A stretch of 64,000 nt of DNA from Achromobacter deleyi. Lineage in GTDB: Bacteria; Pseudomonadota; Gammaproteobacteria; Burkholderiales; Burkholderiaceae_B. This document shows, piece by piece, positions 8,772 to 41,190 of this stretch. Below the pieces are notes generated by a model. It searched no databases. It saw only the letters and a program-made list of their open reading frames with translations, and was not told where the DNA came from. Location of the stretch: NCBI RefSeq assembly GCF_016127315.1, contig NZ_CP065997.1, forward strand, positions 992,001 to 1,056,000, in the 5' to 3' direction. Made by a program: the position numbers and the translations under genes. Positions within the stretch are counted from its first letter, which is position 1. Every line of letters starts with the position of its first letter.

Positions 8772-9706
8772 CACAGTCTCGTCACGCCCGGGGCGTGTTC
8801 GGCCACCGTGTTGCGCAGCGCGGCCATCGCCTCCTGCACGGCGGTGGGCCGGAAGGCATCCTCGCGCCAGTACATGGCCACCGAGCCGAAGCCCGACAGC
8901 CGCACCGGGATGATGCGCATCGCCTTCATCTGCGTGAAGCGCAGCGCGGCGCGATGCGAGGCCACGCCGATCATGTCGCTGTTGTTGATCAGGGTGAGGT
9001 TGATGGTGACTGAATTGGATTCGACGTGGTCGGCCGGCGGCGCCTGGCCGGCCGCGGCCAGCGCGGCGTCGACCGCGTTGCGGATCGGCGTGCCCTTGGG
9101 CCACAGGATCCAGCGGTACGACAGCAGCTCTGGCCAGCCCGGCTGCTCCCGCGCGAACAGCGGATGGCGCGGCCGCGCCACCAGGTGGATCGGCTCCAGG
9201 TACAGCGCTTCGAAGCGGATCGCCGGGTCATGGTGCTCGGGCGCCGAGCGGCCCACCACGATGTCCAGGTCGCCCTGCGCCAGTTGCGCCAGCAGGCGGT
9301 CGGTGGTGCCTTCCACCAGTTTCACGCGGGCCTGCGGCATGCGTTCGAGCAGCTTCATCACCGCCAGCGGCACGGTGTCCGACGCCGACGCGCCCGAGGC
9401 GCCGATCACCACCCGGCCGCCGCCGCCCTCGCGCAGCGCGGCCATGTCGGCGCTGGCGCGGTCCAGCTGCGCCTCGACCCGCTGCGCGTGCGCGATCAGC
9501 ACGTCGCCGTGCGGCGTCGGCCGCAGGCCGCGGGCATGGCGCTCGAACAGCGGCAGGCCGATGTCGTCTTCCAGATCCTTCAGCCATTTCGACAACCCCG
9601 GCTGGGTCGTGTTGAGCATCGCGGCCGAATGGCTGATGTTGCGGGTCTGGGCCAGGCTGAGGAGCATTTTCAGGTTGCGCAGGCGCAACCGGTGAGTCCA
9701 GTCCAT
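8771..9706 (-). CDS. LysR-type regulator of the gentisate operon
   Basis: Transcription factor of 311 aa, divergent from the gentisate dioxygenase gene and so its probable activator. The N-terminal winged HTH reads LAQTRNISHSAAMLNTTQPGLSKWLKDLE, followed by LFERHARGLRPTPHG. The effector domain starts near residue 85 (VVIGASGASASDTVPL). An ATG at 9730 is in frame, but AGAGGG sits correctly before the ATG at 9706 and no such site precedes 9730, so 9706 is preferred. A long inverted repeat lies immediately upstream. The inducer is presumably an aromatic acid (inference from the operon). Confidence 0.88.
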   Translation of the reverse strand: MDWTHRLRLRNLKMLLSLAQTRNISHSAAMLNTTQPGLSKWLKDLEDDIGLPLFERHARGLRPTPHGDVLIAHAQRVEAQLDRASADMAALREGGGGRVVIGASGASASDTVPLAVMKLLERMPQARVKLVEGTTDRLLAQLAQGDLDIVVGRSAPEHHDPAIRFEALYLEPIHLVARPRHPLFAREQPGWPELLSYRWILWPKGTPIRNAVDAALAAAGQAPPADHVESNSVTINLTLINNSDMIGVASHRAALRFTQMKAMRIIPVRLSGFGSVAMYWREDAFRPTAVQEAMAALRNTVAEHAPGVTRL

Positions 9707-9722
9707 GGGGCCCTCTTGTCTC

Positions 9723-9750
9723 TTATCCATATGGTTATTGGTATGGATAA
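9723..9750. promoter_or_regulatory. Candidate LysR operator between lysR and the gentisate operon
   Basis: Perfect 9-bp arms TTATCCATA (9723-9731) and TATGGATAA (9742-9750) with a 10-bp spacer that includes a nested CCATATGG. It fits the LysR recognition pattern of an interrupted dyad in the divergent promoter region. The flanking right side is the only AT-rich stretch nearby (9747-9777) and probably carries the promoter for the dioxygenase operon. Confidence 0.6.
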
Positions 9751-9874
9751 TAAGATAATTTCATTTCAAAACACATAGCTCGTTCCGCATAATCGTCTCC
9801 ATATCGTGACCCGCCGCGCCCGCCGCGACGGGCCAACAGAAGCCGGCCCCGACGCCGGCCCCCAGGAGACAGAC

Positions 9875-10927
9875 ATGCCCGACGGTCCCCCCCCCGGCGC
9901 GGATCGCGCCGCCTATTACGCGCGCATCGCCCAGAAGCACATGGCCCCGCTGTGGGAGTCGCTGCACAACCTGGTGCCGCGCCAGCCCGCGCCGCGCTGC
10001 GTGCCGGCGATCTGGAGATACGACGACGTGCGCGACGACGTGCTGGCCTCTGGCTCGCTCATCACCGCCGAGGAAGCGGTGCGGCGCGTGCTGATCCTGG
10101 AGAACCCGGGCCTGCCCGGCCAGGCCAGCATCACGCAGAGCCTGTACGCCGGCCTGCAACTGATCCTGCCGGGCGAGATCGCGCCCAGCCATCGCCACAC
10201 CCAGTCGGCCCTGCGCTTCATCGTCGAAGGCCGCGGCGCCTACACCGCCGTCAACGGCGAGCGCACCACCATGCATCCGGGCGACTTCATCATCACGCCG
10301 TCCTGGACCTGGCACGACCACGGCAACGCCGAGGCCGTCGATGGCGGCGAACCGGTGGTCTGGCTCGACGGCCTGGACATCCCGCTGCTGCGCTTCCTGG
10401 ATGCCGGCTTCGCCGAGAACTATCCGTCCGCCACCCAGCCCGTCACGCGGCCGGAAGGCGACAGCATGGCGCGCTACGGCCACAACATGGCGCCGGTGCG
10501 CCACCGCGCCGCCAGCGGCACCTCGCCGATCTTCAACTATCCCTATGAGCGCAGCCGCGAGGCGCTGGACGCGCTCTACCGCCACGGCGAGCTAGACCCG
10601 TGGGACGGCGTCAAGCTGCGCTACCTGAATCCGGCCACCGGCGGCTACCCCATGCCGACCATGGCCACCTTCATGCAGCTGCTGCCGGCCGGCTTCCAGG
10701 GCAAGGCCTATCGCAGCACCGACTCCACCGTCTACAGCGTGGTGGAGGGCCGCGGCATCGCCCGCATCGGCGACGCCGAATTCCACTTCGGCCCGCGCGA
10801 CGTGTTCGTGGCGCCGTCGTGGCTGCCGGTGCAGCTGGCGGCGCTGGAAGACGCCACCCTGTTCAGCTATTCCGACCGCCCGGTGCAGGACGCGCTGGGC
10901 CTGTGGCGCGAAGAACGCATCGCCTGA
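9875..10927 (+). CDS. Gentisate 1,2-dioxygenase
   Basis: Ring-cleaving Fe(II) bicupin enzyme that opens gentisate to maleylpyruvate. From the ATG at 9875 (strong CAGGAGACAG ribosome-binding site) it is 350 aa. The N-terminal cupin has the metal-binding HRH at residues 106-108 and the partner histidine in WHDHG (147/149). The second, non-catalytic cupin spans about 255-345 ([15 protein letters not shown]). The frame extends upstream to 9806, but that leader overlaps the promoter region. It is first in an operon with fumarylpyruvate hydrolase and maleylpyruvate isomerase, which supports gentisate over 1-hydroxy-2-naphthoate or salicylate as substrate. Confidence 0.92.
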
Positions 10928-10986
10928 CGCGGGCGGGCCGCCGCGCCCGCCCTCCCCCTTTCCGTTCCGCCTTCAAAGGTTGATTC

Positions 10987-11685
10987 ATGTCTTACGTGTT
11001 TGCTCCCGCCGACCCCGTCGCCGTGCCCGTCGCCGGCAGCCAGGACCGCTTTCCCGTGCGCCGCGTCTATTGCGTTGGCCGCAACTACGCCGCCCACGCC
11101 CGCGAGATGGGCTTCGATCCCGACCGCGAACCGCCGTTCTTCTTCTGCAAGCCGGCCGACGCCGTGGTGCCGGTGGCGCAGGACGCCACGCTGACGCTGC
11201 CCTACCCGCCCGAGACCGCCAACTTCCACTATGAAATCGAGCTGGTGGCGGCCATCGGCAAGGGCGGCGCCAACATCGCGGTCGAGGCCGCGCTGGAACA
11301 CGTGTGGGGCTACGCCGTCGGCCTGGACATGACGCGCCGCGACCTGCAGATGAAGATGCGCGAGGCCGGCCGTCCCTGGGAACTGGGCAAGGCCTTCGAC
11401 CAGAGCGCGCCCATCGGCCCGCTGCTGCCCGCCGCGCAGGCCGGCGATATCCACCGCGCCGGCATCTGGCTGCAGGTCAACGGCGCCGACAAGCAGCGCA
11501 GCGACGTCGGCCAGCTGATCTGGTCGGTGGCCGAGACCATAGCCTACCTGTCGCGCTACTTCCGCCTGGAAGCCGGCGACCTGATCTATACCGGCACGCC
11601 CGAGGGCGTGGGCCCCGTGACGCGCGGCGACAAGCTGGTCGGCGGCGTCGACGGCCTGGGCACGCTCAGCGTGCAGATCGCCTGA
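10987..11685 (+). CDS. Fumarylpyruvate hydrolase (FAH family)
   Basis: Hydrolyses fumarylpyruvate to fumarate and pyruvate, the last step of the gentisate route. The protein is 232 aa, the short FAH type resembling NagK of the naphthalene/gentisate pathway. The acidic metal-binding residues lie in FHYEIELVAAIG, with a downstream aspartate in GYAVGLDMTRRDLQ, and the C-terminal GDLIYTGTPEGVGPV is a family signature. It sits 59 bp after the dioxygenase and 12 bp before the isomerase. Sequence alone would allow another short FAH hydrolase; context makes fumarylpyruvate the best substrate. Confidence 0.88.
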   Translation: MSYVFAPADPVAVPVAGSQDRFPVRRVYCVGRNYAAHAREMGFDPDREPPFFFCKPADAVVPVAQDATLTLPYPPETANFHYEIELVAAIGKGGANIAVEAALEHVWGYAVGLDMTRRDLQMKMREAGRPWELGKAFDQSAPIGPLLPAAQAGDIHRAGIWLQVNGADKQRSDVGQLIWSVAETIAYLSRYFRLEAGDLIYTGTPEGVGPVTRGDKLVGGVDGLGTLSVQIA

Positions 11686-11697
11686 GGAACCGCATTC

Positions 11698-12336
11698 ATG
11701 CAACTGCACAGCTTCTTCAACAGCTCCACCTCGTACCGCGTGCGCATCGCGCTGGCGCTCAAGGGCCTGCCGTTCGATATCGTGCCGGTGAACCTGCGCA
11801 AGCAGGAACAGCGCGCCGCCGACTACGTGGCGCAGAACCCGTCGGCCGGCGTGCCGCTGCTGACGGAAGGCGATTTCCAGCTGTCGCAATCGCTCGCCAT
11901 CATCGACTACCTGGACGCCACGCATCCCGAGCCGCGCCTGATCCCGGCCGCGCCCCGCGACCGCGCCCGCGTGCTGGAACTGTCCAACGCCATCGCCTGC
12001 GACATCCACCCGGTCAACAACATGCGCATCCTGCGCTACCTGCAGGAAGAACTGGCCGCCACCGAGGCGCAGAAGAACGCCTGGTACCACCACTGGATCC
12101 GCGAAGGCCTGACCGCGGTCGAGACCCTGCTGGTCCGCCACGGCCAAGGCGCCTATTGCTTCGGCGACGCGCCGACGCTGGCCGACTGCTGCCTGGTGCC
12201 GCAGGTGGCCAACGCCCAGCGCATGGGCTGCGACCTGACGGCCTACCCGCGCCTGACGGGCGTGTACGAACACTGCGTCGCGCAGCCCGCGTTCCAGCAG
12301 GCCGCGCCCAGCAACCAACCGGACTACATCAAGTGA
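11698..12336 (+). CDS. Maleylpyruvate (maleylacetoacetate) isomerase, zeta GST
   Basis: Glutathione-dependent cis-trans isomerase converting maleylpyruvate to fumarylpyruvate. The protein is 212 aa. The zeta-class active-site motif is SSTSYRVRIAL at residues 9-19, followed by QNPSAGVPLL (cis-Pro region) and QSLAIIDYLD (glutathione binding). The C-terminal all-helical domain runs from about residue 90 and includes HPVNNMRILRYL. It overlaps the following GTG-start gene by 4 bp. The operon context favours maleylpyruvate over the tyrosine-pathway substrate maleylacetoacetate. Confidence 0.9.
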   Translation: MQLHSFFNSSTSYRVRIALALKGLPFDIVPVNLRKQEQRAADYVAQNPSAGVPLLTEGDFQLSQSLAIIDYLDATHPEPRLIPAAPRDRARVLELSNAIACDIHPVNNMRILRYLQEELAATEAQKNAWYHHWIREGLTAVETLLVRHGQGAYCFGDAPTLADCCLVPQVANAQRMGCDLTAYPRLTGVYEHCVAQPAFQQAAPSNQPDYIK

Positions 12337-12731
12337 CCACGCAAGCTTCCCCGGGCCAGGAGCCCGACACCCTGGGCGCGCCGCTGCGCGAATACACCGA
12401 CCCGGCCTACCGCCCGCTGTGCGCCAACCTGGCCGAGGTGCGCGCCAACATCGACCGCCTGGACGACGAGATCGTGCGCCTGATGGCCGAGCGCGCCATG
12501 TACGTGAAGGACGCCGCGCGCTTCAAGCGCGACGCCTTCCAGGTCAGCGCGCCAGCGCGCCAGGCCGAGGTGTTCGAGAAGGTGCGGCGCCTGGCCGAGC
12601 GCCACGACCAGGGCTTCGAGAACCTGGACCAGGTGGTGGACGCGGCCTACCGCGCCATGGTGGCGGCCTTCATCGCCAACGAACAGACCTATTTCAACAA
12701 CATGAAGATCGCGGGAGACAAGCATGCATAA
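12333..12731 (+). CDS. PchB-like chorismate mutase-fold protein
   Basis: AroQ-fold protein of 132 aa from GTG 12333, which overlaps the isomerase stop. The core starts at about residue 30: VRANIDRLDDEIV (36-48) and YVKDAARFK (57-65) resemble isochorismate pyruvate lyase PchB (IDxxDxxIV and YVKxAxRFK), including the lysine at the position of the catalytic mobile-loop Lys. Members either rearrange chorismate to prephenate or split isochorismate into salicylate and pyruvate. A 29-residue N-terminal extension has no known motif. No isochorismate synthase is near, so the reaction is unassigned. It overlaps the next gene by 8 bp, showing tight co-translation. Confidence 0.8.
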   Translation: MTTQASPGQEPDTLGAPLREYTDPAYRPLCANLAEVRANIDRLDDEIVRLMAERAMYVKDAARFKRDAFQVSAPARQAEVFEKVRRLAERHDQGFENLDQVVDAAYRAMVAAFIANEQTYFNNMKIAGDKHA

Positions 12732-13728
12732 GCCCTCAACCCTGGCGCGGGCGCGCGGCATCGCGGCGCGCGCGCTGGCCTTGGGACTGGTCGCGCTGGC
12801 GCCGCTGGGCGCGGCGCAGGCCGCCGACGCCTGGCCGTCGCAGCCGCTCAAGGCGCTGGTGCCGTTCGGCCCGGGCTCCAGCCCCGACCAGGTGGCGCGC
12901 ATCGTCGGCGAGAAGGCCGGCGCCATCCTCGGCCAGACCGTGGTGGTGGAAAACAAGCCGGGCGCCAGCGGCAACATCGGCACCTTCGCCATCGCCAACG
13001 CCAAGCCCGACGGCTATACCTTCGGCGTCTCGATCACCGGCCCGCTGGTGAACAACACGCTGCTGTTCGACAAGCTGCCCTACGCGCCCGCCACCGACCT
13101 GTCGCCGCTGACGCTGGCGGTGCACCAGCCCAACGTGCTGGTGGTGCCGGCCAAGGCCGGTATCGACAACATTGGCCAGTTGCTCGAAGCGCTCAAGCAG
13201 AACCCGGACAAGTACAACTTCCCCTCGCCCGGCGCCGGCACCGTCTCGCACCTGGCCGTGGAACTGCTGCTGCAACGGATCGGCGCGCGCGCCACGCACG
13301 TGCCGTATCCGTCGTCGCCGGCCGCGCTGACCTCGCTGCTGTCGGGCGACACGCAGTTCGCCGCGCTGCCGCCGATCGCCGTCATGAGCATGGTCAAGGA
13401 CGGCCGCCTGAAGGCGCTGGCCGTGACCTCGTCCAAGCGTTCCACGCTGCTGCCCGAGATCCCCACGCTGGCTGAAGTCGGCGTGCCCGGCATCGAGGGT
13501 TCGGCCTGGATCGGTTTCGTGATTTCGTCCAAGGTGCCCGCCGACATCCAGAAGAAGCTGTCGGACGCGCTGATCCAGGCGATCCGCGACCCCGAGGTGG
13601 TCAAGCGCCTGCAGGCGCAGTTCATGGACCCGGTGGGCAGCACCCCGGCCGAGTTCCGCGCCTACATGGACGATGAGCTCAAGCGCTGGGAACCCCTCAT
13701 CACCAAGCTCGGCATCAAGGGCCAATAA
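12724..13728 (+). CDS. Bug-type periplasmic receptor (TTT family)
   Basis: Periplasmic solute-binding protein of 334 aa from the Bug/TctC family expanded in Alcaligenaceae. A signal peptide spans about residues 1-36 (LALGLVALAPLGAAQAADA). The mature part begins WPSQPLKALVPFGPGSSPDQVAR and contains VVVENKPGASGNIG, the ligand-loop signature. No TctA or TctB membrane subunits accompany it, so it may feed a shared transporter or act as a sensor. The location suggests an aromatic acid ligand (inference). Confidence 0.9.
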   Translation: MHKPSTLARARGIAARALALGLVALAPLGAAQAADAWPSQPLKALVPFGPGSSPDQVARIVGEKAGAILGQTVVVENKPGASGNIGTFAIANAKPDGYTFGVSITGPLVNNTLLFDKLPYAPATDLSPLTLAVHQPNVLVVPAKAGIDNIGQLLEALKQNPDKYNFPSPGAGTVSHLAVELLLQRIGARATHVPYPSSPAALTSLLSGDTQFAALPPIAVMSMVKDGRLKALAVTSSKRSTLLPEIPTLAEVGVPGIEGSAWIGFVISSKVPADIQKKLSDALIQAIRDPEVVKRLQAQFMDPVGSTPAEFRAYMDDELKRWEPLITKLGIKGQ

Positions 13729-13808
13729 GCCGGCCCATGAACGGGCGCCCCGGCGCCCGGCATTTCGCAACACCAGACGCAGTCCGCAAGACAAGCAAGG
13801 AGACAAGC

Positions 13809-15161
13809 ATGACCCTCACCGAACCCGCCCGCCAGGTGCCGCTCTACGGCGAATACGACGTCGTCGTGCTGGGCGGCGGCCCCGCCGGCATCCTGGCCGC
13901 GGCCAGCGCCGCCCGCAACGGCGCCAGCGTGCTGCTGGTGGAACGCTATGGCTTTCTCGGCGGCATGGGCACGGCGGCGGGCGTCTCCAACTTCTGCGGA
14001 CTGCACGCCAACATCCGCGGCACCATCCGCCAGGTCGTGCATGGCATGACGGACGACCTGCTGGACCGCATGCGCGCGCTGGACGGCCTGAACGACCCGC
14101 ACCTGATCCTGGGCAAGATCCACGCCCAGGCCTACGACATCGCCGCCTTCAAGTGCGCCGCCGACGGCATGGTGCAGGACAGCGGCGCGCGGATCCTGTT
14201 CCATGCGCTGGCCACCGGCCTGGCGCGCGACGCCGCCGGCAATGTCGACGCGCTGTTCCTGGAAACCAAGTCCGGCCGCTGCGCGGTGCGCGGCAAGGTC
14301 TTCATCGACTGCTCCGGCGACGCCGACATCGCGCAATGGGGCGGCCTGCCGTTCGAGAAGGGCGACGCGCACGGCCACATGCTCTATCCCACGCTGATGT
14401 TCAAGGTCGGCAATGTCGACGGCGCCCGCGCCCAGGAGGCCTGGAAGACCATTCCGCAGCTGATGGACCAGGCCGCCGCCAGCGGCGAATTCACCTTCCC
14501 GCGGCGCGGCGCCATCGTGCGGCCGCAAAAGCATGACTACGAGTGGCGCGTCAACGTCACCCAGCTGGCCAACGCCGATGGCAGCGCGGCCGACGGCACC
14601 GACGCCGCCTCGCTCTCGGCCGGCGAGCTGGAAGGCCGCCGCCAGATCACCGAATACCTGAAGTTCCTGCGCGCCAAGGTGCCGGGATTCGAGAATGCCT
14701 ACGTGCTCGACATCGCGCCGCAGCTGGGCATCCGCGAGACCCGCCGCATCGTCGGCGAAGCCATGCTGACCAAGGACGACGTGCTGGGCTGCGCCGACTT
14801 CGAGGACAGCATCGGCGTCAATGGCTGGCCGCTGGAGATGCACACCGCCGGCGACGTGCAATGGATGTGGCCGCCGATTCCCGAATCGCGCGGCTACAAC
14901 CAGCTGCCGTTCCGCATGATGGTGCCGCGCCGCGGCCCCGGCGTGGCCGGCAACGTGCTGGTGGCCGGACGCTGCGCCTCGATGACGCACGAGGGCCAGT
15001 CGGCCGCCCGCGTCAGCGGCAGCTGCTTCGTCATGGGCGAGGCCGCCGGCACTGCCTCGGCGCTGGCGCTGCGCGCCGGCATCGCGCCGGCCGACCTGCC
15101 GGTCGCCACCCTGCAGGCGCAGCTGCAGCGGCAAGGCGCCTTCCTCGGCGGCCACGACTGA
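13809..15161 (+). CDS. FAD-dependent oxidoreductase of unknown substrate
   Basis: Flavoprotein of 450 aa of the FAD_oxidored type. It starts at ATG 13809 behind AAGGAGACAAGC. The Rossmann motif GGGPAGILAAASAARNG lies at about residues 22-38, a second FAD contact is FIDCSGDADIAQWGG (around 170), and the C-terminal GNVLVAGRCASMTHEGQ closes the FAD site. It has no signal peptide. It is not the aromatic-ring hydroxylase type of its downstream neighbour. Position between the gentisate genes and the 3-hydroxybenzoate monooxygenase suggests a peripheral oxidation feeding the pathway, but the substrate cannot be read from the sequence. Confidence 0.8.
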   Translation: MTLTEPARQVPLYGEYDVVVLGGGPAGILAAASAARNGASVLLVERYGFLGGMGTAAGVSNFCGLHANIRGTIRQVVHGMTDDLLDRMRALDGLNDPHLILGKIHAQAYDIAAFKCAADGMVQDSGARILFHALATGLARDAAGNVDALFLETKSGRCAVRGKVFIDCSGDADIAQWGGLPFEKGDAHGHMLYPTLMFKVGNVDGARAQEAWKTIPQLMDQAAASGEFTFPRRGAIVRPQKHDYEWRVNVTQLANADGSAADGTDAASLSAGELEGRRQITEYLKFLRAKVPGFENAYVLDIAPQLGIRETRRIVGEAMLTKDDVLGCADFEDSIGVNGWPLEMHTAGDVQWMWPPIPESRGYNQLPFRMMVPRRGPGVAGNVLVAGRCASMTHEGQSAARVSGSCFVMGEAAGTASALALRAGIAPADLPVATLQAQLQRQGAFLGGHD

Positions 15162-15180
15162 ACATGCAAGGAATCCAGGA

Positions 15181-16404
15181 ATGAACGCAACACCGGCAGT
15201 AAAGGGCGCGCCCCAATCCGTGATCGTGGTGGGCGGCGGCATCGGCGGCCTGGCCGCGGCGCTGGCGCTGACGCGCCAGGGCATCGCGGTGCAGTTGCTG
15301 GAGCAGGCCGCGCACATCGGCGAGATCGGCGCCGGCATCCAGCTCGGCCCCAACGCCTTCGCCGCGCTCGACGCGCTGGGCGTGGGCGCCACGGCGCGCC
15401 AGCGCGCGGTCTTCACCGACCACATCATCATGATGGACGCGGTCGATGCGCGCGAAGTGGTGCGCATCGACACCGGCGCCGCCTTCCGCGAGCGTTTCGG
15501 CGGCCCCTACGCCGTGATCCACCGCGCCGACATCCACCTGTCGATCCTGGAAGCGGTGCAGCAGAACCCGCTGATCCGCTTTCGCACCTCGACGCAGATC
15601 GCCAGCGTCGCGCAGGACGGCAGGCGCGTGGAGGTCACCGACACCGAAGGCAACCGCTACCAGGCCGACGCGGTGATCGGCGCCGACGGCGTCAAGTCCG
15701 TGATCCGCGAACACCTGATCGGCGATCCGCCGCGCGTGACCGGCCACGTGGTCTACCGCGCCGTAGTCGAGCGCGACAACATGCCCGAGGAGCTGCGCAT
15801 CAACGCGCCGGTGCTGTGGGCCGGCCCGCACTGCCACCTGGTGCACTACCCGCTGCGCGGCGGCCAGCAATACAACCTGGTGGTGACCTTCCACAGCCGC
15901 GAGCAGGAACAATGGGGCGTGCGCGAAGGCAGCAAGGAGGAAGTGCTGTCGTACTTCCAGGGCATCCATCCTCGCCCGCACCAGATGCTCGACCGCCCCA
16001 CCTCATGGAAGCGCTGGGCCACGGCCGACCGCGAACCGGTCGAGCAGTGGGGCCAGGGCCGCCTGACCATCCTGGGCGACGCCGCCCACCCCATGACCCA
16101 GTACATGGCCCAGGGCGCCTGCATGGCGCTGGAAGACGCGGTGACGCTGGGCGAAGCGGTCAAGCGCTGCGACCACGACCTGCAAGCCGCCTTCCGCCTG
16201 TACGAATCGGTGCGCATCCCGCGCAGCGCGCGCGTGGTCTGGTCGACCCGCGAAATGGGCAGGCTCTATCACGCGCGCGGTGTCGAACGCACCGTGCGCA
16301 ACATGCTGTGGACCGGCCGCGGCCAGTCCCAGTTCTACGACGCGCTGCAGTGGCTCTACGGCTGGAAGGTGGAGAACTGTCTCGCGGGACCCATCCAGCC
16401 ATAA
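15181..16404 (+). CDS. 3-hydroxybenzoate 6-monooxygenase-like flavoprotein
   Basis: Class A FAD/NAD(P)H aromatic hydroxylase of 407 aa, expected to convert 3-hydroxybenzoate to gentisate. Three fingerprints are in place: VVGGGIGGLAAALAL (GxGxxG, about 17-31), VIGADGVKSVIREHL (DG motif, about 165) and TILGDAAHPMTQYMAQG (GD motif, about 297). It starts 19 bp after the FAD oxidoreductase. Salicylate 1-hydroxylase paralogues share the fold, but linkage to gentisate dioxygenase favours 6-hydroxylation. The exact ring position remains context-based inference. Confidence 0.83.
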   Translation: MNATPAVKGAPQSVIVVGGGIGGLAAALALTRQGIAVQLLEQAAHIGEIGAGIQLGPNAFAALDALGVGATARQRAVFTDHIIMMDAVDAREVVRIDTGAAFRERFGGPYAVIHRADIHLSILEAVQQNPLIRFRTSTQIASVAQDGRRVEVTDTEGNRYQADAVIGADGVKSVIREHLIGDPPRVTGHVVYRAVVERDNMPEELRINAPVLWAGPHCHLVHYPLRGGQQYNLVVTFHSREQEQWGVREGSKEEVLSYFQGIHPRPHQMLDRPTSWKRWATADREPVEQWGQGRLTILGDAAHPMTQYMAQGACMALEDAVTLGEAVKRCDHDLQAAFRLYESVRIPRSARVVWSTREMGRLYHARGVERTVRNMLWTGRGQSQFYDALQWLYGWKVENCLAGPIQP

Positions 16405-16431
16405 AAAAAGCAGGCACAGGAGGAGACAACC

Positions 16432-17607: not shown

Positions 17608-17648
17608 AAAGTCGCCAGACGGGCATGGGATCGGTTAAAACCCTTCCC

Positions 17649-19461: not shown

Positions 19462-20202
<741 letters not shown>

Positions 20203-32455: not shown

Positions 32456-32625
32456 GTCTACTCCGAGGGTCGTGGAACGCCCGCGGCAGCCAACGCACCA
32501 CGCCCTCTTGAAGCGCATGCGGGCAAGCGGCGGGAGGTGAATTCCGGGCGCTCGATGCGCCTCTGTCCTACGGTTGTAACCGCTCGCCCCACCCCCGGCA
32601 ATAGGGCGATGCGATAATTGCGGGC

Positions 32626-33693: not shown

Positions 33694-33742
33694 GCGCCGC
33701 CCGCGCCCGCCGCGCGCTTGCCGGCCGCTGCCGGCAGGCTTT

Positions 33743-33766
33743 CCCGGCTGAGCAGCCCTAGCCGGG
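33743..33766. terminator. Weak hairpin between mutY and tetR
   Basis: CCCGGCT/AGCCGGG pair across a 10-nt loop, overlapping the stop of the convergent TetR gene. There is no U-tract; assigned with low confidence. Confidence 0.25.
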
Positions 33767-34480
33767 CTCGCGGTCCGCCGGCGCGTCCGGCAGGACCAGC
33801 TTCTCCAGGTAGGCCAGGTCTTCGCGCAGCAGGCGCAGCGATTCGCTCACGTCGGGGCTGCGCGGCCGCCGCGCCTCGTCGCGCAGCAGTGAACGCACCG
33901 CCATGTCCGCCATGATGGCCGACACCTCGGCGCGACTGAGCCGGCCGTCAGGCTTGTACCACCAGGCCGACCAGTTGCACATGCCGATCAGGCTGACCGC
34001 CGCGATGTGCGGATCCACCATCCGGAACTGGCCGTCCCGCACCCCTTTCTCGATGACCGCGCTGAAGTTTTCCAGCAGGCTGCGCCGCGCCGCCTGCAGC
34101 GCCGCGCGCTGCTTGGGGGTCATGTCGCCCTCGGTGCGGTCGGCCACGCGGAATTCCGCCGGACGCGACAGGATCAGGTCGGCGTGCCGGGCCACCAGGG
34201 CCCCCAGCGCCTGCACCGGATCCAGATCGTCGCGGGCCACGGTTTCGCCGGCCAGCTTGCGCGCCGTGTTCAGGACTTCCTCGGTCAAGGCCCGCAGGAT
34301 CGCGTCCTTGCTCTTGAAGTAGTAATAGACCGCGGTGCGGCTCAAGCCCAGGGTCTCGGCGATGTCCTGGATGCTGGTGCCGCCGGTGCCGCGCTCGATG
34401 AACAGCGTCGCCGCGGCATCGAGTATGGCGCTGCGCAGCGCTTCGCCCTTCAGGGTTCCCTTGGTGCTTGGTTCGGTCAC
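33758..34480 (-). CDS. TetR-family repressor of the salicylyl-CoA-like operon
   Basis: Repressor of 240 aa with a GTG start at 34480, behind GAAGGAA. The HTH domain reads IFERGTGGTSIQDIAETLGLSR-like (residues about 28-50) and continues AVYYYFKSKDAILRAL. The ligand domain is residues 65-215, with a charged tail. It is divergent from the hydrolase-ligase operon, and a near-perfect promoter overlapped by a 22-bp palindrome lies between them. The ligand is likely an aryl-CoA or the aromatic acid (inference). Confidence 0.87.
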   Translation of the reverse strand: MTEPSTKGTLKGEALRSAILDAAATLFIERGTGGTSIQDIAETLGLSRTAVYYYFKSKDAILRALTEEVLNTARKLAGETVARDDLDPVQALGALVARHADLILSRPAEFRVADRTEGDMTPKQRAALQAARRSLLENFSAVIEKGVRDGQFRMVDPHIAAVSLIGMCNWSAWWYKPDGRLSRAEVSAIMADMAVRSLLRDEARRPRSPDVSESLRLLREDLAYLEKLVLPDAPADREPG

Positions 34481-34614
34481 GGTTGCGGTTTTCCTTCAAA
34501 GGCCGCCCAACACGGCTCGGGCGAATTATGTCATCCGCGAGATCGTCGGCTCCCCGCCAGCGGGGTCCGCACGATGCGGGCATCTGCCCGATTTGACCAC
34601 AGTGTCAGTTTTTC

Positions 34615-34636
34615 GACTTTGATTGACATCAAAGTC
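34615..34636. promoter_or_regulatory. TetR operator palindrome
   Basis: Perfect 9-bp arms GACTTTGAT (34615-34623) and ATCAAAGTC (34628-34636) around TGAC. It is AT-rich in a GC-rich genome and overlaps the -35 box, so binding would block RNA polymerase. Confidence 0.75.
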
Positions 34637-34651
34637 AAATATTTGTCTAAT
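34623..34651 (+). promoter_or_regulatory. Sigma-70 promoter of the hydrolase-ligase operon
   Basis: -35 TTGACA (34623-34628), 17-bp spacer, -10 TCTAAT (34646-34651), one mismatch to TATAAT. Transcription should start near 34658, about 35 nt before the ATG, with AAGGAGA as ribosome-binding site. Confidence 0.75.
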
Positions 34652-34693
34652 CTGACGAAACCAGCCCCGCAACGACTATCCAAGGAGACGGAT

Positions 34694-35953
34694 ATGACGT
34701 CCGGCACCCCATCGAGCCAGGTCACCGCCGGCTTTCTGAATACCGACTGGAACCCGCGCGACCTGCCGCCGGGCGCCACCACCCGCAATACCGTCCTGCG
34801 CACCGCCGACGGCGCGGCCACCTCCGGATCGCTCTACCTGCCCGCGGGGCCGCGCCCCGACACCGTGGTCTGCGTCATGCACCCGCGCGAATTCATGGCT
34901 TGCCACTACCTGATCCCCGACATCGTCGCGGCGGGCTGCGCGGCCTGGTCGCAAGGCGCCCGCTCGGTCGGCAACGACCTGCGGCTGGAACACGAAGCCG
35001 CCCTGCAGGACGTGGCGGCGGGCCTGCGCCACCTGCGCGAGCAAGGGTTCAGGCACATCATCCTGCTGGGCAATTCCGGCGGCGCCGGGCTGTACGCCTT
35101 CTATGCCCACCAGGCCGGCCTGCCGCCGTCGCAACGGCTGGCGCGCACGCCCGGCGGCAAGCGCAGCGGACTGGCGGACCTGGACATGCCCGCGATCCAC
35201 GGCATGGTCCTGGTCGGCCCGCACCCCGGCCAGGGCGCGCTGCTGCTCAACGCCATCGACCCCTCCGTCGCCGACGAAAACGACGCGCTGTCGGTGGCGC
35301 CGGAACTGGATCCGCTGGCTCCCGCCAACGGCTATCGGCCCGGCGGCCAGGCCCGCTATGCACCCGACTTCGTCGAGCGCTACCGCGCCGCGCAGCGCCA
35401 GCGCGTGGCGCGACTGGACGCCCTGGCGCGGCGGATGATCGACGACCGCATGCAGGCGCGCGCGGCGCTCAAGGAGCAGGCCGCGCCCACCCCCGAACTG
35501 CGGCGCCAGGCGGCCCACACGCCCGTGCTGGTGGTCTGGCGCACCGATGCGGACCTGCGCTGCCTGGACCTGACGCTGGATCCTTCCGACCGCCACCCCG
35601 GGTCGCTGTGGGGCAAGGATCCCTACGCCTCGAACTACGGCGCGGTGGGCTTCGCGCGCTTCTGCACGCCGGAAAGCTGGCTGTCCACCTGGTCCGGCCT
35701 GTCGTCCAACGCCAGCCTGGCGCGCACCGCGCAGGGCATCGTCCAACCCACCCTGGTCATCGAATACACCGGCGACCAGGCCTGCTTTCCCGCCGACGTG
35801 CGCGCCATCCACGACGCGATTCCCGCGGCGGACAAGACCCACCTGCGCATCCGCGGCGACCACCATGGCCGCGCGCTCGCCGACGGCGAGGAGCCCGGCC
35901 GCTATGCCGCCGGCCGCGAGCTGGCGGCCTGGCTGCGCGCGCGCTTCCTGTAA
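34694..35953 (+). CDS. Alpha/beta hydrolase of unknown substrate
   Basis: Hydrolase of 419 aa, first gene of the TetR-controlled operon. The nucleophile elbow is GNSGGAG with Ser128, the likely acid is Asp in YTGDQACFP and the likely base is His in IRGDHHGRAL near the C-terminus, so the triad seems complete. There is no signal peptide, so it acts in the cytoplasm. A central insertion (about residues 150-290) is longer than in small esterases. Because the operon seems to end in gentisate, an aromatic ester, lactone or thioester substrate is possible; this is inference. Confidence 0.75.
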   Translation: MTSGTPSSQVTAGFLNTDWNPRDLPPGATTRNTVLRTADGAATSGSLYLPAGPRPDTVVCVMHPREFMACHYLIPDIVAAGCAAWSQGARSVGNDLRLEHEAALQDVAAGLRHLREQGFRHIILLGNSGGAGLYAFYAHQAGLPPSQRLARTPGGKRSGLADLDMPAIHGMVLVGPHPGQGALLLNAIDPSVADENDALSVAPELDPLAPANGYRPGGQARYAPDFVERYRAAQRQRVARLDALARRMIDDRMQARAALKEQAAPTPELRRQAAHTPVLVVWRTDADLRCLDLTLDPSDRHPGSLWGKDPYASNYGAVGFARFCTPESWLSTWSGLSSNASLARTAQGIVQPTLVIEYTGDQACFPADVRAIHDAIPAADKTHLRIRGDHHGRALADGEEPGRYAAGRELAAWLRARFL

Positions 35954-35976
35954 TCGAACCTTCCCCGGAGCCCACC

Positions 35977-36870
35977 ATGACCTCCCCCGCTTCCTCTCCG
36001 CTGCGCCTGCACGGCGTGGACCACACCGCCCGGCCCACCTGGCGCCTGCGCGAAACGGTGCATTTCTACCGTGACGTCCTCGGCCTGCCGCTGGTGCACG
36101 TCATCTCGGCGCGCGGCTGGGGCCCCGCGACGCACCCCGATTTCCTGCACTTCTTTTTCGACAGCGGGCGCGGCAGCACCATCGCCTTCTTCTACTACCT
36201 GGGCGCCGAGGAACCGCCGGCCATGCAAGGCCGCGCCGCGATGCGGCCGCTGCCCGAGGACCACGTCTCCGACGCCACCCACACCGCCTGGCTGGTGGAA
36301 AGCGAGGCCGAACTGCATGCCTGGAAACAGAAGCTGCAGGACGCCGGCCTGGACGTCTCGGTCGAGACCCGCCACGAGGTGATCGAGTCGATCTACGTGC
36401 GCGACCCGAACGGCTACTTCATCGAATTCACCCGCAAGCTGCGCCCGCTGGCCGGCATCGACGCGACCGACGCCGCGCTGACGCTGCAGGCCGCCATGCA
36501 GGCCGAGGCAGAAGCCGAATCCCGCGGCGGGCGTATCGAACACGTGGACGACATCTGGGCGCGCAAGGCGGCGCTGCTGGAGGCAAGCCTGGCGCCGGTC
36601 CCGGCGCGTGACGCGGCTGGCCTGCGGATCTTCGTGCCGCGGGTCGAGGAATTCTCGCCGTTGATCGCCGACGCCTCGCGCCGCGACGACTGCGCCGTGG
36701 TGCCCTACGACGAATTCGACTGCATCGTGGCCGACGGCCCGCTGGAATTCCGCCGCAAGACGCTGGGCCTGAAGCCGGCCGTCTGGTATGGCCTGTTCAC
36801 GGGCGGCGTGCGAGGCGAGATCGAGGTGTTCGACCGCGATCGCGTGCAGATCGCGCCGGCAGGCCGCTAG
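35977..36870 (+). CDS. VOC (glyoxalase/dioxygenase fold) protein with extra C-terminal domain
   Basis: Protein of 297 aa. The N-terminal half (about 8-150) is a vicinal-oxygen-chelate unit: HGVDHTARPTWRLRETVHFYRDVLGLPL and IYVRDPNGYFIEFTRKL, with His and Glu in the usual metal positions. The C-terminal half (about 165-297) matches nothing I recognise; it contains VPYDEFDCIVADGPLEF and GVRGEIEVFDRDRV. It may be a dioxygenase, isomerase or lyase. It sits 23 bp after the hydrolase and 23 bp before the ligase, so it belongs to the operon. Confidence 0.72.
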   Translation: MTSPASSPLRLHGVDHTARPTWRLRETVHFYRDVLGLPLVHVISARGWGPATHPDFLHFFFDSGRGSTIAFFYYLGAEEPPAMQGRAAMRPLPEDHVSDATHTAWLVESEAELHAWKQKLQDAGLDVSVETRHEVIESIYVRDPNGYFIEFTRKLRPLAGIDATDAALTLQAAMQAEAEAESRGGRIEHVDDIWARKAALLEASLAPVPARDAAGLRIFVPRVEEFSPLIADASRRDDCAVVPYDEFDCIVADGPLEFRRKTLGLKPAVWYGLFTGGVRGEIEVFDRDRVQIAPAGR

Positions 36871-36893
36871 CGCCGCGCCAGGAGGAGACAAGC

Positions 36894-38573
36894 ATGCGAG
36901 ACATACGCAACCCCATAGAGGGCGTGACCTACCATCCCGAGGACCGTGCCCGGCGCTATTTCGCCAGCGGCGCCTGGGAGCGCCGCAGCGTCGGCGACGC
37001 GCTGCGCGCCACCGCGCGGCGCTGCCCGGCGCGCACCGCGCTGATCACCGACGAAGGCAGCCTGAGCTTCCAGGAGCTGGACGAACGCAGCGAACGGCTC
37101 GGCGCCGCCCTGTTGCGGCTGGGGCTGGCCCCCGGCGACCGCGCCATCTTCCAGATGGGCACCACGCTGGAAACCGCCGTGGCGCTGCTGGCCTGCTACA
37201 AGGCCGGCATCGTGCCCGTCTGCACGCTGCCGCAGCACCGCGAACTGGAGATCGGCCAACTGGCGCGGCAGACGCGGGCGCGCGGCTACTTCGTGCAGGC
37301 CGACTTCGGCAGTTTCGACCTGACCGCGTTCGCCGCCGCCAGGGTGGCGGCCAGCGACTCGCTGGCGCACCTGGTCATCGCCCGCGGCGCCGGCGGCGCG
37401 CACGCCGGCCTGCAGTCGCTGATCGATAGCATGCCGCTGGAGGACGCCCGCGTCCTGCTGCAACGCCGGGGCCCGGGCTGTGAAGACGTGCTGAGCTTCC
37501 AGCTGTCGGGCGGCACCACCGGCATGCCCAAGATCATTCCGCGCTTCCACGCCGAATATCTCGGGCATTCACTTGCCTGCGCAAGCCGCTACGGCATGGA
37601 GGAATCGGAGCGCATCATCTGGTCGCTGCCGCTGCTGCACAACGCCGCGCAGGTCTACGTGCTGATTCCCGTGATCGCCATGGGCGTGTCGGCCGTGCTG
37701 ATGCCGCGCGTGGACGTGCCGCGCATGCTGGCGCTGATCGAGCGGCACGGCGTCACCCGCGCCATGTCGATCGGGCCCATCGCCCCGCAGATCATGGCCT
37801 ACGACCGGCTGTCCGAGCATGACCTGGGTTCGCTGCGCCTGTTCATCACCATGAGCGCGGCCGAACGGCTGGAAGCGCACCTGGGCGTGCCGTGCTCCAA
37901 CCTGTTCGGCATCACCGAGGGGCTGCTGCTCGGCTCGCCGGCGACCGCGTCCGCGCAGGCCCGCCATCACACCCAGGGCTGGTCCGGCTGCCCCGACGAC
38001 GAGATACGGCTGCTGCGCCCCGGCACCGAAGACCCGGCCGCGGCGGGGGAAATGGGCGAGCTGTGCTTTCGCGGTCCGGCCACGCTGCCGGGATTCTTCG
38101 ACGCGCCCGAGGCCAATGCCACGGCCTTCACGTCCGATGGCTTCTACCGCAGCGGCGACATGATGACCGCGCGCGTCGTCGACGGGCAGACCTGCTACAC
38201 GTTCGAGGGCCGCCTGCGCGACAACATCAATCGGGGCGGCGAGAAGATCGGTTGCGAGGAAGTCGAGGCGCAGGTCGGCGCCCATCCCGCCGTCGCCGAG
38301 GCCAAGCTGGTGGCGATGCCCGATCCCTACTACGGCGAGAAAGGCTGCGTGTTCGTCATCCTGCGGCCCGGCCACGCCGCGCCCACGGTGCGGGAACTGG
38401 CGGACTTCCTGGCCGGCCGCGGACTCGCCAAATACAAGTGCCCCGAACGCATCGAGCAGATCGAGGCCTTTCCCGTCACCAAGGTGGGCAAGCTGGACAA
38501 GGCCGCCCTGCGCCGCACCGTGGCCGACCTGTTGAACCAGGAGGCCGCGCAGGCCGAAGGAGAACCGCAATGA
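36894..38573 (+). CDS. Aryl-acid CoA ligase (salicylyl/benzoyl-type, ANL superfamily)
   Basis: Adenylates an aryl carboxylate and probably transfers it to CoA. The protein is 559 aa. The AMP loop is QLSGGTTGMPKIIPR (about 200-214), A5 motif NLFGITEGLLLG, A7 region FYRSGDMMT, hinge GRLRDNINRGGEKI and the A10 lysine in VTKVGKLDK. The layout resembles DhbE/EntE aryl ligases and salicylate-CoA ligases. The next two genes, thioesterase and hydroxylase, overlap by 4 bp each, making an obligate unit that supports an aryl-CoA product. Confidence 0.88.
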   Translation: MRDIRNPIEGVTYHPEDRARRYFASGAWERRSVGDALRATARRCPARTALITDEGSLSFQELDERSERLGAALLRLGLAPGDRAIFQMGTTLETAVALLACYKAGIVPVCTLPQHRELEIGQLARQTRARGYFVQADFGSFDLTAFAAARVAASDSLAHLVIARGAGGAHAGLQSLIDSMPLEDARVLLQRRGPGCEDVLSFQLSGGTTGMPKIIPRFHAEYLGHSLACASRYGMEESERIIWSLPLLHNAAQVYVLIPVIAMGVSAVLMPRVDVPRMLALIERHGVTRAMSIGPIAPQIMAYDRLSEHDLGSLRLFITMSAAERLEAHLGVPCSNLFGITEGLLLGSPATASAQARHHTQGWSGCPDDEIRLLRPGTEDPAAAGEMGELCFRGPATLPGFFDAPEANATAFTSDGFYRSGDMMTARVVDGQTCYTFEGRLRDNINRGGEKIGCEEVEAQVGAHPAVAEAKLVAMPDPYYGEKGCVFVILRPGHAAPTVRELADFLAGRGLAKYKCPERIEQIEAFPVTKVGKLDKAALRRTVADLLNQEAAQAEGEPQ

Positions 38574-39043
38574 CCAGCACCGAATACGTCGTCAGCGACA
38601 CCCCGTTCGTGGTGCGGCGCCGGGTCAAATGGGGCGATTGCGATCCCGCCGGCGTGGTCTACACCGTGACCTTCGGCGAGTACGTGCTTTCGGCCGCCGA
38701 ACTCTTCTATGGCCGCCTGTTCGGCGGCACGCCGCAGCGCATCAAGGACGAGCACGGCTTCGGCACCCCGACCCGCGCGCTGTCGTTCGACTTCCAGGCC
38801 TCGCTGTGGCCGGATGAGGAATTCGACATGCTCGTCACGGTGCAGGAGGTGCGCACCCGCACCTACACCCTGCGCGTCCACGGCACCGCGCGCGGCGCGC
38901 CCGCCTTCGACGCCGTCCTGACCCCGATCTGCGTGGCGCGCGGCGAACGGCGCGCGATCGCCGTGCCGGGCGCGCTGCGCGACGCCTTGTTGTCTTATCA
39001 GGCCTGCACCCAGGCCGCCACCAGCGGGAGCGCTGAATCATGA
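38570..39043 (+). CDS. Hotdog-fold acyl-CoA thioesterase (4HBT family)
   Basis: Thioesterase of 157 aa. The N-terminal VKWGDCDPAGVVYTVTFGEYV is the 4-hydroxybenzoyl-CoA thioesterase motif, with the catalytic Asp in the WGDCDPAG loop. It overlaps the ligase stop and the hydroxylase start by 4 bp each (ATGA). Placed with aryl-CoA enzymes, it would release the free aromatic acid, gentisate if the hydroxylase is 5-specific. It is cytoplasmic. Confidence 0.85.
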   Translation: MTSTEYVVSDTPFVVRRRVKWGDCDPAGVVYTVTFGEYVLSAAELFYGRLFGGTPQRIKDEHGFGTPTRALSFDFQASLWPDEEFDMLVTVQEVRTRTYTLRVHGTARGAPAFDAVLTPICVARGERRAIAVPGALRDALLSYQACTQAATSGSAES

Positions 39044-40179
39044 AAATCGCCGTCATCGGCGCCGGCCCCGCCGGCCTGTACTTTTCCCTGCTCGCCAAGA
39101 AACACGATCCACGCCACGAGATCACGGTCTACGAACAGAACCCGCAAGGCGCCACCTACGGCTGGGGCGTGGTGTTCTCGGACATCGGCCTGGCGTTCCT
39201 GCGCGAAGCGGATCCGGACTTCTTCGGCCGCTTCGTGGCCCACCACGAACGCTGCGACTACATGGAGATCGTGCATCGCGGCACCCGGGTCCAGGTCCAG
39301 GGCAACCCCTTCTCGCGCACGTCCCGCATCGACATGCTGGCGGTGCTGGAACGCGCCTGCCTGGAGGCCGGCGTGCGGATTCGCCACCAGCAGCGCGTCG
39401 ACGACGTGGCGAGGCTGGCGGCCGAGGTCGACATGCTGGTCGCGGCCGATGGCAGCAACAGCGCGGTGCGCAAGCAGTACGCCGACCAGTTCCGCCCGGC
39501 GTTCGAGCGCCGCCGCAACAAGTTCGCCTGGTACGGCACGCGCCAGCGCTTCCACCCGGTGTCCCTGATCTTCCGCGAGGCCGAGCACGGCATCTTCATC
39601 GCCCACAGCTACCAGTACAGCAAGGACCTGAGCACCTTCCTGGTGGAGGTGGATCCGGACAGCTGGCGCCGCGCCGGCCTGGACACGGCCAGCGAGGAGG
39701 ACAGCCGGCGCTATTGCGCGCGGGTGTTCGGCGACGATCTCGGCGCCAACGACCTGCTGGGCAACCGCTCGCTCTGGTTCGAAGCGAACATCGTGCGCAA
39801 TGAGCGCTGGTCGCACGAGAACATCGTGCTGCTGGGCGACGCGCTGCGCACGGTGCACTTTTCGCTGGGCTCGGGCACGCGCATGGCGATGCAGGACGCG
39901 ATCGCGCTGCACCAGGGCCTGCTGCGCCACCCCGGCGACGCGCGCGCGGCCTTCGCGGAATTCGAGACGCTGCGGCGGCCGGCCTCGTCCAGCTTCCAGG
40001 CCGCCGCGGGACGCAGCCTGGACTGGTACGAAAACGTGGCCGCCAAGATGCACCTGGACCCCGTCGCGTTCGCCTACGACTACATGCGGCGCACCGGCCA
40101 GGTCAGCCACGACGACCTGCGCCAGCGCGATCCGGCGTTCGCCGCCGCCTACGAGACCCGCCATGCCGTAGCGGCATAG
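39040..40179 (+). CDS. Salicylyl-CoA 5-hydroxylase-like FAD monooxygenase
   Basis: Flavin hydroxylase of 379 aa. FAD motif IGAGPAGLYFSLLAKK (6-21), WGVVFSDIGLAFLR (about 46-59), DMLVAADGSNSAVR and VLLGDALRTVHFSLGSG. The N-terminal half and WGVVFSD element match the monooxygenase half of 2-aminobenzoyl-CoA monooxygenase/reductase and the single-domain salicylyl-CoA 5-hydroxylases (SdgC type). The reductase half of the former is absent, favouring the latter. It would convert salicylyl-CoA to gentisyl-CoA. Identification is from motifs and context, not a search. Confidence 0.8.
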   Translation: MKIAVIGAGPAGLYFSLLAKKHDPRHEITVYEQNPQGATYGWGVVFSDIGLAFLREADPDFFGRFVAHHERCDYMEIVHRGTRVQVQGNPFSRTSRIDMLAVLERACLEAGVRIRHQQRVDDVARLAAEVDMLVAADGSNSAVRKQYADQFRPAFERRRNKFAWYGTRQRFHPVSLIFREAEHGIFIAHSYQYSKDLSTFLVEVDPDSWRRAGLDTASEEDSRRYCARVFGDDLGANDLLGNRSLWFEANIVRNERWSHENIVLLGDALRTVHFSLGSGTRMAMQDAIALHQGLLRHPGDARAAFAEFETLRRPASSSFQAAAGRSLDWYENVAAKMHLDPVAFAYDYMRRTGQVSHDDLRQRDPAFAAAYETRHAVAA

Positions 40180-40203
40180 CCATCCGAGGAACCAGGAGGA
40201 GAC

Positions 40204-41190
40204 ATGAAAAACAATATCCGCTTTGCCATCACCACCGCCGTGGCCATGGCCGCATTGACCTGTGCCGCGGCCCAGGCCCAGTCCGGCGCGTTTCCCGAAC
40301 GGCCGGTGCGCATGGTGCTGCCCTATTCCGTCGGCAGCGGCCCCGACGCGGTCGCCCGCATGGTCGGCGAACAACTGACGGCGGCGTGGAAGCAACCCGT
40401 CATCGTCGAGAACAAGCCCGGCGCCAACGGCTGGCTGGCCATCGGCGACGTCAAGCGCGCCGGCCGCGACGGCTACTCGCTCGCCATCGTCGACAACACC
40501 CACATGACCTTGCAGCCGCACCTGTACCGCAGCCTGCCGTTCGATCCGGTGGCCGACTTCGCCCCGGCCGCGCCGATCTATCACACCCACTTCTTCATCG
40601 TCGTCGGCGCCGGATCGCCCTGGAACAAGGTCAGCGACCTGGTCGAAGCGGCGCGGGCGCAGCCAGGCAAGCTGACCTATGGCACCTGGGGCATGGGCAG
40701 CGTGGCGCACGTCGGCACCGCCATGCTGCAGGACGCCACGCGCACCACCATGACGCACGTGCCGTTCAAGGACCTGGCCCAGCTCTACACGGCGGTCGCG
40801 AACGGCGAGGTCGACTGGGCCTTCGGCACGGCGGCGACGGTGCAGAATCTGTATCAGGCCAAACGGGTCAAGCTGCTGGCGCTGGCCGCCCCGGCGCGCC
40901 TGGCGTCGTACCCGGACGTGCCGACCGTGACCGAGAGCGGCGGGCCGGCGGACTTCGAACTGAAGACCTGGGTGGCGGCCTTCGCCCCCAAGGGCACGCC
41001 CGACGCGGTCCTGCAACGCATCAACGCCGGCATCGCCGCGGCCGTGCGCTCGCCGGCGGTGGCCAAGCGCTTCGAGACCTTCGGCTTCCAGGCCTGGCCG
41101 GCCGACGCGGCCGAACTGGTGCGGGCCCGCGAGGCGGATTCGGAACGTTTCGCCACGGTGGTCAGGAAGGCCGATATCTCGCTGGACTGA
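40204..41190 (+). CDS. Bug-type periplasmic receptor (TTT family)
   Basis: Periplasmic receptor of 328 aa, last gene of the TetR-controlled operon. Signal peptide FAITTAVAMAALTCAAAQA, cleavage near residue 23. The mature start is QSGAFPERPVRMVLPYSVGSGPDAVARM and the loop VIVENKPGANGWLAIGDV shows the Bug signature. The ribosome-binding site is AGGAGGAGAC. No membrane subunits accompany it. Co-expression suggests it binds the aromatic acid that feeds the ligase. Confidence 0.9.
   Translation: MKNNIRFAITTAVAMAALTCAAAQAQSGAFPERPVRMVLPYSVGSGPDAVARMVGEQLTAAWKQPVIVENKPGANGWLAIGDVKRAGRDGYSLAIVDNTHMTLQPHLYRSLPFDPVADFAPAAPIYHTHFFIVVGAGSPWNKVSDLVEAARAQPGKLTYGTWGMGSVAHVGTAMLQDATRTTMTHVPFKDLAQLYTAVANGEVDWAFGTAATVQNLYQAKRVKLLALAAPARLASYPDVPTVTESGGPADFELKTWVAAFAPKGTPDAVLQRINAGIAAAVRSPAVAKRFETFGFQAWPADAAELVRAREADSERFATVVRKADISLD

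Follow-up and report, generated by a model that had tools for sequence, protein, structure and literature searches.

The window analysed here is a stretch of 64,000 nucleotides of Achromobacter deleyi, C1:992001-1056000 of a genome of 6.99 Mb in a single contig. It contains two operons for aromatic acids, each with a divergently transcribed regulator: the LysR operon (operon A), which belongs to the gentisate pathway, and the TetR operon (operon B), which is our main subject. The TetR-family regulator (TetR_N and TetR_C_24) occupies 33758-34480 on the reverse strand, and the genes of operon B lie beyond it on the forward strand. The first encodes an alpha/beta hydrolase (ABH) of 419 residues (34694-35953) that falls in no Pfam family above cut-off. 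It is followed by a VOC protein of 298 residues (35974-36870, PF00903), an aryl-acid AMP/CoA ligase of the EntE/PchD kind (36894-38573), a hot-dog thioesterase (38570-39043; 4HBT_2 at 42.8 bits, cut-off 25.5), a single-component flavoprotein hydroxylase of 379 residues similar to salicylyl-CoA 5-hydroxylase (39040-40179) and a TctC-type periplasmic receptor (40204-41190, PF03401). The original prediction, made from the sequence alone, had recognised the ligase, the thioesterase and the hydroxylase, and the family matches at 36894-40179 bear it out; its gene list left out the leading ABH and the VOC protein. The reading we favour, in a judgement that is evenly poised, is that operon B forms a self-contained module for the breakdown of an ortho-substituted aromatic acid, likeliest salicylate or a close analogue.

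The VOC protein has an extradiol-type region (residues ~6-157) and a C-terminal domain similar to MmoB/DmpM (~208-298). His17, His103, His134, Tyr141 and Glu151 are invariant in 40 sequences, and the extradiol signature is present in all 55 full-length copies; these were kept for having more than 80% coverage and no internal stop, compared with 77 loci counted as having the gene, and split VOC genes are under-represented in both residue analyses. From the motif, we take His17, His103 and Glu151 to be the 2-His-1-Glu triad, with His134 and Tyr141 in the second shell. The structure model (pLDDT 90.6) resembles the solved type I extradiol dioxygenases in fold, sharing fold and conserved residues with enzymes that include MhqO (3oaj) and 2,6-dichlorohydroquinone dioxygenase (4huz), and it differs from them in its C-terminal domain, which in the same comparison has the fold of the ~90-residue MmoB/DmpM effector. 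At the Pfam gathering score, PF02406 (MmoB/DmpM) gives no match to this domain, and one of five stand-alone relatives of the domain scores 12.9 bits on it (cut-off 25). Such effector domains are otherwise known from diiron monooxygenases. The original prediction held that the TetR operon has no ring-cleavage enzymes; given the extradiol residues of the VOC protein, this is probably wrong.

Several comparisons speak against a ring-cleaving role. The VOC protein scores far below the models for catechol 2,3-dioxygenase (TIGR03211, 19.6 bits against 320) and biphenyl-2,3-diol dioxygenase (TIGR03213, 23.0 bits against 366), and the fosfomycin-resistance transferase models score it slightly higher, at 28.6 bits, which is still below cut-off. 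Its nearest solved relative by sequence, 9u42, is named a glyoxalase, and its best fold match, level with the dioxygenases, is methylmalonyl-CoA epimerase. These last two would suit a CoA-epimerase or a glyoxalase, an assignment that we disfavour: the residue set suits the three-ligand extradiol type, and in the alignment the position of the fourth glyoxalase ligand, with ligand positions taken from general knowledge, looks aromatic in the VOC protein. The ABH belongs to the same weighing. Its Ser129 (in GNSGG), Asp362, His391 and His392, numbered from 34691, are invariant in 42 sequences, and a profile search against solved structures returned nothing useful (best E 0.019). It is a candidate hydrolase of the ring-cleavage product.

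The remaining enzymes of operon B are more familiar. By family and nearest relatives, the genes at 36894-40179 place a ligase, a thioesterase and a hydroxylase side by side as in the CoA-dependent salicylate pathway. Among solved structures, the ligase comes nearest to the salicylate-AMP ligase 5wm2 (327.6 bits) and PchD (7tyb, 309.2 bits), with the 2,3-dihydroxybenzoate ligases ranking behind them, and it falls below the cut-off of the (2,3-dihydroxybenzoyl)adenylate synthase model (TIGR02275, 350 bits against 723.55). The hydroxylase aligns to the N-terminal half (positions 1-385 of 768) of NF006101, the bifunctional salicylyl-CoA 5-hydroxylase/oxidoreductase; it has no reductase half, and with 379 residues and 389 bits it falls short of the full-length bifunctional criterion (cut-off 1078). 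A paralogue of the bifunctional type is found elsewhere in the genome, ~33 kb before the window, in a 799-codon frame; its hydroxylase half, at C1:957407-958585, shares 40% identity with the hydroxylase of operon B, and proteins of this type are matched in 42 of 43 members of the genus.

Zhou et al. are said to have described, in 2021, CoA-mediated catabolism of salicylate in Rhizobium sp. X9. Passages of PMC11335346, PMC6460240 and PMC13215587 set out the CoA-dependent conversion of salicylate to gentisate; the first gives gentisyl-CoA as the intermediate, the second names SdgC of Streptomyces WA46, and the third reports, for one strain of Massilia, that salicylate induces a gene annotated as sdgC. 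A hot-dog-fold gentisyl-CoA thioesterase is described in a passage of PMC516016, and passages of PMC6449761 and PMC8292978 do not treat the CoA route. Caution is needed in reading salicylate from homology, since Alcaligenes aquatilis, which has an SdgC homologue, failed to grow on salicylate according to a passage of PMC6460240. Operon B shares with the Sdg and X9 type the logic of aryl-CoA ligase, salicylyl-CoA 5-hydroxylase and thioesterase, by gene family, and would share the gentisyl-CoA intermediate; compared by pathway description only, it differs in having the VOC protein with its MmoB/DmpM-like domain and the ABH as fixed members, and in that loci of its kind are often linked to a maleate isomerase. 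The gentisate pathway with a GST-type maleylpyruvate isomerase, as in operon A, also opens a 2,5-dihydroxybenzoate ring, but its cupin dioxygenase, its isomerisation to fumarylpyruvate and its FAA hydrolase are all missing from operon B. In the mhqPOD cluster of Paenibacillus, the MhqO ring-cleavage dioxygenase stands beside other mhq genes; the abstract of PMC12673573, in which the cluster is proposed to act on a lignin biphenyl, names neither a CoA ligase nor a flavoprotein hydroxylase. We found no paper that describes the operon B gene set, with limited coverage of subscription journals, so it may already have been published.

To assess conservation of the module, genome contigs were searched with the ABH alignment, which gave 185 relatives. 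Neighbourhood counts use the best 80 loci and matches of more than 50% coverage above stated identity floors; some of these loci end at contig edges, and some are from the same genomes as a set collected with the hydroxylase. Every relative with a hydroxylase of 66% identity or more (15 of 15) has the ABH, VOC protein, ligase and hydroxylase together, and the ABH and VOC protein also occur in 7 of another 20 loci, whose hydroxylases are more distant; none of these 20 stretches contains a gentisate 1,2-dioxygenase (GDO). Around the 80 ABH loci, the VOC gene is found in 77, the ligase in 77, the hydroxylase in 74, the TetR regulator in 71 and the thioesterase in 56. A GDO-like match (L164, 38% identity) and an FAA-hydrolase match (L118) are each found at a single locus, and a maleate-isomerase gene at 50. 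The copy in L138 matches the solved maleate cis-trans isomerase 4fq7 over residues 4-249 with an E of 1.4e-81. The thioesterase was not detected in 10 of the 50 maleate-isomerase loci, including the six from Cupriavidus. Where annotations were seen, the module genes carry hypothetical or generic protein names. A rearranged module, with the order ABH, ligase, VOC, hydroxylase, thioesterase and a hydroxylase ~40% identical, is present in five other members of the genus (L181, L184, L185, L188 and L189).

One locus, L085, differs in composition, with a ligase (50% identity), a hydroxylase (39%), an FAA hydrolase and a GDO (516 bits), without ABH or VOC genes. One of its open reading frames (ORFs) resembles a thioesterase by eye and has no family match. 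The simplest reading is that in operon B the VOC protein and the ABH replace the GDO and the FAA hydrolase. At another locus, L086, a GDO (61%) and a distant hydroxylase (40%) are ~10 kb apart, and the ligase is matched weakly.

According to the original prediction, operon B is a CoA route of the Sdg type that leads from salicylate, by way of salicylyl-CoA and gentisyl-CoA, to gentisate, and the GDO of operon A then cleaves this product. The VOC protein and the ABH would then be accessory. The ligase, hydroxylase and thioesterase suit such a route, and L085 joins a ligase, the thioesterase-like frame and a hydroxylase to an FAA hydrolase and a GDO. Among 150 relatives, all 20 carriers of the module have a GDO (12 of 12 within the genus and 8 of 8 outside it), and outside the genus, where a GDO was counted at 51% identity or more, the 8 of 8 carriers compare with 15 of 99 non-carriers (107 genomes, p 1.5e-6). 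The listing of carriers has 23 genomes, from which G081, G092 and G141, with distant hydrolases only (130 bits at most), were not counted; G007 has only the rearranged module. Set against this are the VOC protein and the ABH, which are conserved like the ligase and hydroxylase, the single GDO-like gene in 80 loci, and the maleate isomerase in 50 of the 80, which would be superfluous to a route through GDO, isomerase and fumarylpyruvate hydrolase.

The genome-wide distribution argues in the same direction. In 50 carrier genomes, which we selected from the 80 loci, a GDO above cut-off is found in 33, a GDO paralogue of 149-428 bits only in 8, and no GDO match above 40 bits in the other 9, whereas a relative of the maleate isomerase (E <1e-30) is found in all 50. 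The discordance between isomerase and GDO is 17 to 0 (p = 1.5e-5), or 9 to 0 with the lenient GDO limit (p = 0.004); both p values are weakened by draft assemblies, chosen genomes and shared ancestry, and cluster-linked isomerases contribute to them. Speaking against our reading, the association of the GDO with the module outside the genus is as strong as that of the maleate isomerase, which is present there in 8 of 8 carriers and 14 of 99 non-carriers (p 9.8e-7).

We therefore consider the feeding of operon A by operon B to be rather unlikely as the purpose of the module. That operon B strictly requires operon A is rejected, because 17 of the 50 carrier genomes have no GDO above cut-off. In this genome the thioesterase could still supply gentisate to the LysR operon, as a facultative link. 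The original prediction was thus largely right in what it observed, though incomplete, and partly supported in its interpretation: the nearest relatives of the ligase, the match of the hydroxylase to half of NF006101 and the L085 cluster fit the CoA route, whose chemistry we infer, and the presence of a GDO in all 20 carriers fits the proposed feeding, while the module's own VOC and ABH genes and the near absence of GDO-like genes around it do not. The prediction had also reasoned that a second GDO elsewhere, serving the TetR operon, would speak against the link. This is found in part: a GDO-like paralogue lies at C1:1110516-1111532, with an FAA hydrolase and a periplasmic binding protein nearby, and its 315.7 bits are below the cut-off of 442.

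Other observations weigh against a self-contained operon B, beside the constant presence of a GDO in the carriers among the 150 relatives. The operon of this genome is itself without a maleate isomerase, the sole one found lying unlinked at C1:1173450-1174184, and 30 of the 80 ABH loci show none. Within the genus, the isomerase also occurs in 21 of 31 non-carriers, and GDO and maleate isomerase may both simply accompany aromatic-degrading generalists. The thioesterase, present in 56 of the 80 loci, would free gentisate. On a Streptomyces chartreusis plasmid, a cupin, an FAA hydrolase and a maleylpyruvate isomerase stand a few kb from the module, with transposases between. On a Mycobacterium avium plasmid, the ABH, AMP-binding and thioesterase genes lie beside an acyl-CoA dehydrogenase and an FAA hydrolase, in a stretch with neither maleate isomerase nor FAD monooxygenase, and a stretch of Rhodococcus qingshengii likewise has no maleate isomerase.

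An extradiol enzyme and an alpha/beta hydrolase form the classical pair of meta-cleavage pathways, and the two could act upstream, the one cleaving a ring and the other a C-C or ester bond so as to free an ortho-hydroxy acid from a larger precursor, which the ligase and hydroxylase would then convert to gentisate. Distant VOC/ABH pairs do occur in other settings, on plasmids of Bosea and Variovorax SRS16 (L195 and L197), one adjoining an MBL hydrolase and the other an FAD-dependent oxidoreductase and a DUF2783 gene; because of them, the results suggest that the pair is a reusable unit. Such an upstream role is nevertheless improbable in our view. Of 33 recurring ORF families listed by crude ORF calling, 11 were inspected by eye, and no hydratase-aldolase set was recognised among them; operon B holds no candidate for oxidation of the precursor, and the maleate isomerase indicates a C4 maleyl product. 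An aldehyde-dehydrogenase-like family was found in 9 of the 80 loci.

The ligase pocket bears on the identity of the acid. The operon B ligase retains the HN pair of its acid pocket, and in the module ligases aligned this pair is followed by A[AG], except in L163 and L166, which have HNLN; the window ligase is six residues shorter at the VGG loop than the solved salicylate and 2,3-dihydroxybenzoate enzymes. L163 and L166 are similar to the rearranged loci and are perhaps for another acid. This pocket, unlike those known for salicylate and 2,3-dihydroxybenzoate, and its divergence in two related loci would fit a module for a different ortho-substituted acid, such as anthranilate or a hydroxypyridine carboxylate, with the VOC protein and the ABH processing an amino or aza product. 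An amidase gene (PF01425, 42256-43704), which adjoins an HTH_31/MLTR_LBD regulator, lies ~1 kb beyond operon B and may be connected with it. We think such a substrate improbable as well: no amidase or deaminase was recognised among the 11 recurring families inspected by eye, and the same HN-AG pocket is found in the GDO-containing L085, which argues for a gentisate-forming substrate.

Between the TetR gene and the ABH gene, the palindrome TTGAC-N6-GTCAA (34623-34638) is probably the operator of the TetR regulator. It occurs once in the window, where 0.02 are expected, and precedes the ABH gene in 13 of 14 close loci, six of which have a second copy 30 bp away, and in 34 of 79 loci of a wider set. 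Genome-wide it is found at five places, which is background, the reversed control pattern giving 10 matches per strand; the case for the operator rests for this reason on the window count and conservation and not on the genome count. Scans of window and genome for shared regulation found no TetR-type palindrome at operon A. Because the palindrome precedes operon B and not operon A, the two operons look independently controlled, as had been proposed.

Operon A is an ordinary 3-hydroxybenzoate/gentisate operon, by its gene families, that carries an insert. Divergent from the LysR gene (8771-9730, reverse strand), its forward-strand genes encode a cupin gentisate 1,2-dioxygenase (9875-10927; TIGR02272, 574 bits, above the cut-off of 442), an FAA hydrolase, probably fumarylpyruvate hydrolase (10987-11685, PF01557), a GST-type maleylpyruvate/maleylacetoacetate isomerase (11698-12336; TIGR01262, 282 bits, cut-off 171), a chorismate-mutase-type protein (~12333-12731, start codon approximate) that is CM_2 and isochorismate-lyase-like (PF01817; NF005475 at 63 bits, below the cut-off of 126), a TctC-type periplasmic receptor (12724-13728), an FAD-dependent oxidoreductase (13809-15161; PF12831, 373 bits), a 3-hydroxybenzoate 6-monooxygenase (15181-16404; NF006021, 734 bits, above the cut-off of 459) and an ABC-type periplasmic binding protein (Peripla_BP_6, 16432-17607). 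The dioxygenase and monooxygenase scores, together with the FAA hydrolase and GST isomerase, confirm the catabolic genes foreseen for this operon; the chorismate-mutase-type, TctC and oxidoreductase genes, which make up the insert (12333-15161), had gone unmentioned. The insert was sought in 12 loci. It is kept in four of five same-genus loci (L198-L201, the fifth, L206, being without it) and in L202 and L208, and was not found in L204, L205 and L209. In L203, TctC and a chorismate-mutase-like match of 38% are present without the oxidoreductase, and in L207 the oxidoreductase (60%) and TctC (48%) are separate from the dioxygenase genes. The GDO of operon A is present in all 43 genus members examined, with its own genome counted. 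Elsewhere in the window, an ORF of 1224 residues at 28844-32518 resembles, by eye, a fused indolepyruvate ferredoxin oxidoreductase.

Returning to the self-contained module, gene content, conservation, conserved residues, fold similarity and the maleate isomerase linkage in relatives have been computed, and the favoured route, with its substrates, reactions, step order and effector-like domain role proposed on these grounds, would end in maleate and fumarate. The TctC receptor would help to take up the acid, the ligase would convert this salicylate-type acid to its aryl-CoA, and the flavoprotein would hydroxylate the aryl-CoA at C5 to give a 2,5-dihydroxy, hydroquinone-type thioester. The VOC protein would then cleave the ring beside the carboxyl-bearing carbon, its substrate being either the thioester or the acid freed by the thioesterase; the thioester is slightly favoured, because 10 of the 50 maleate-isomerase loci show no thioesterase. 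The MmoB/DmpM-like domain may gate or couple this reaction. The ABH would split the cis (maleyl) product directly to maleate and a C3 unit, and a maleate isomerase would convert maleate to fumarate. The LysR operon, under its own regulator, would be a distinct route for 3-hydroxybenzoate and gentisate. A pairing of the operons is possible and not required, and the unit of VOC protein, effector-like domain and hydrolase is the more interesting point.

More specifically, and only as a tentative proposal, the VOC protein with its MmoB/DmpM-like domain, fused or accompanying, would open 2,5-dihydroxybenzoyl-CoA, and the ABH, which has no Pfam family, would yield maleate directly. Taken together with this, and on the same doubtful footing, the module would parallel the gentisate pathway at the level of CoA thioesters and be present in Beta-, Gamma- and Alphaproteobacteria and in Actinomycetota. 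The palindrome offers a candidate regulator site for testing the module. If the proposal is true, a widespread hydrolase outside Pfam would gain a function, as would a VOC protein that carries an effector-like domain, and bacteria credited with the conversion of salicylyl-CoA to gentisate, like those judged to have no salicylate route for lack of a gentisate dioxygenase, may hold a complete alternative with different ring-opening chemistry.

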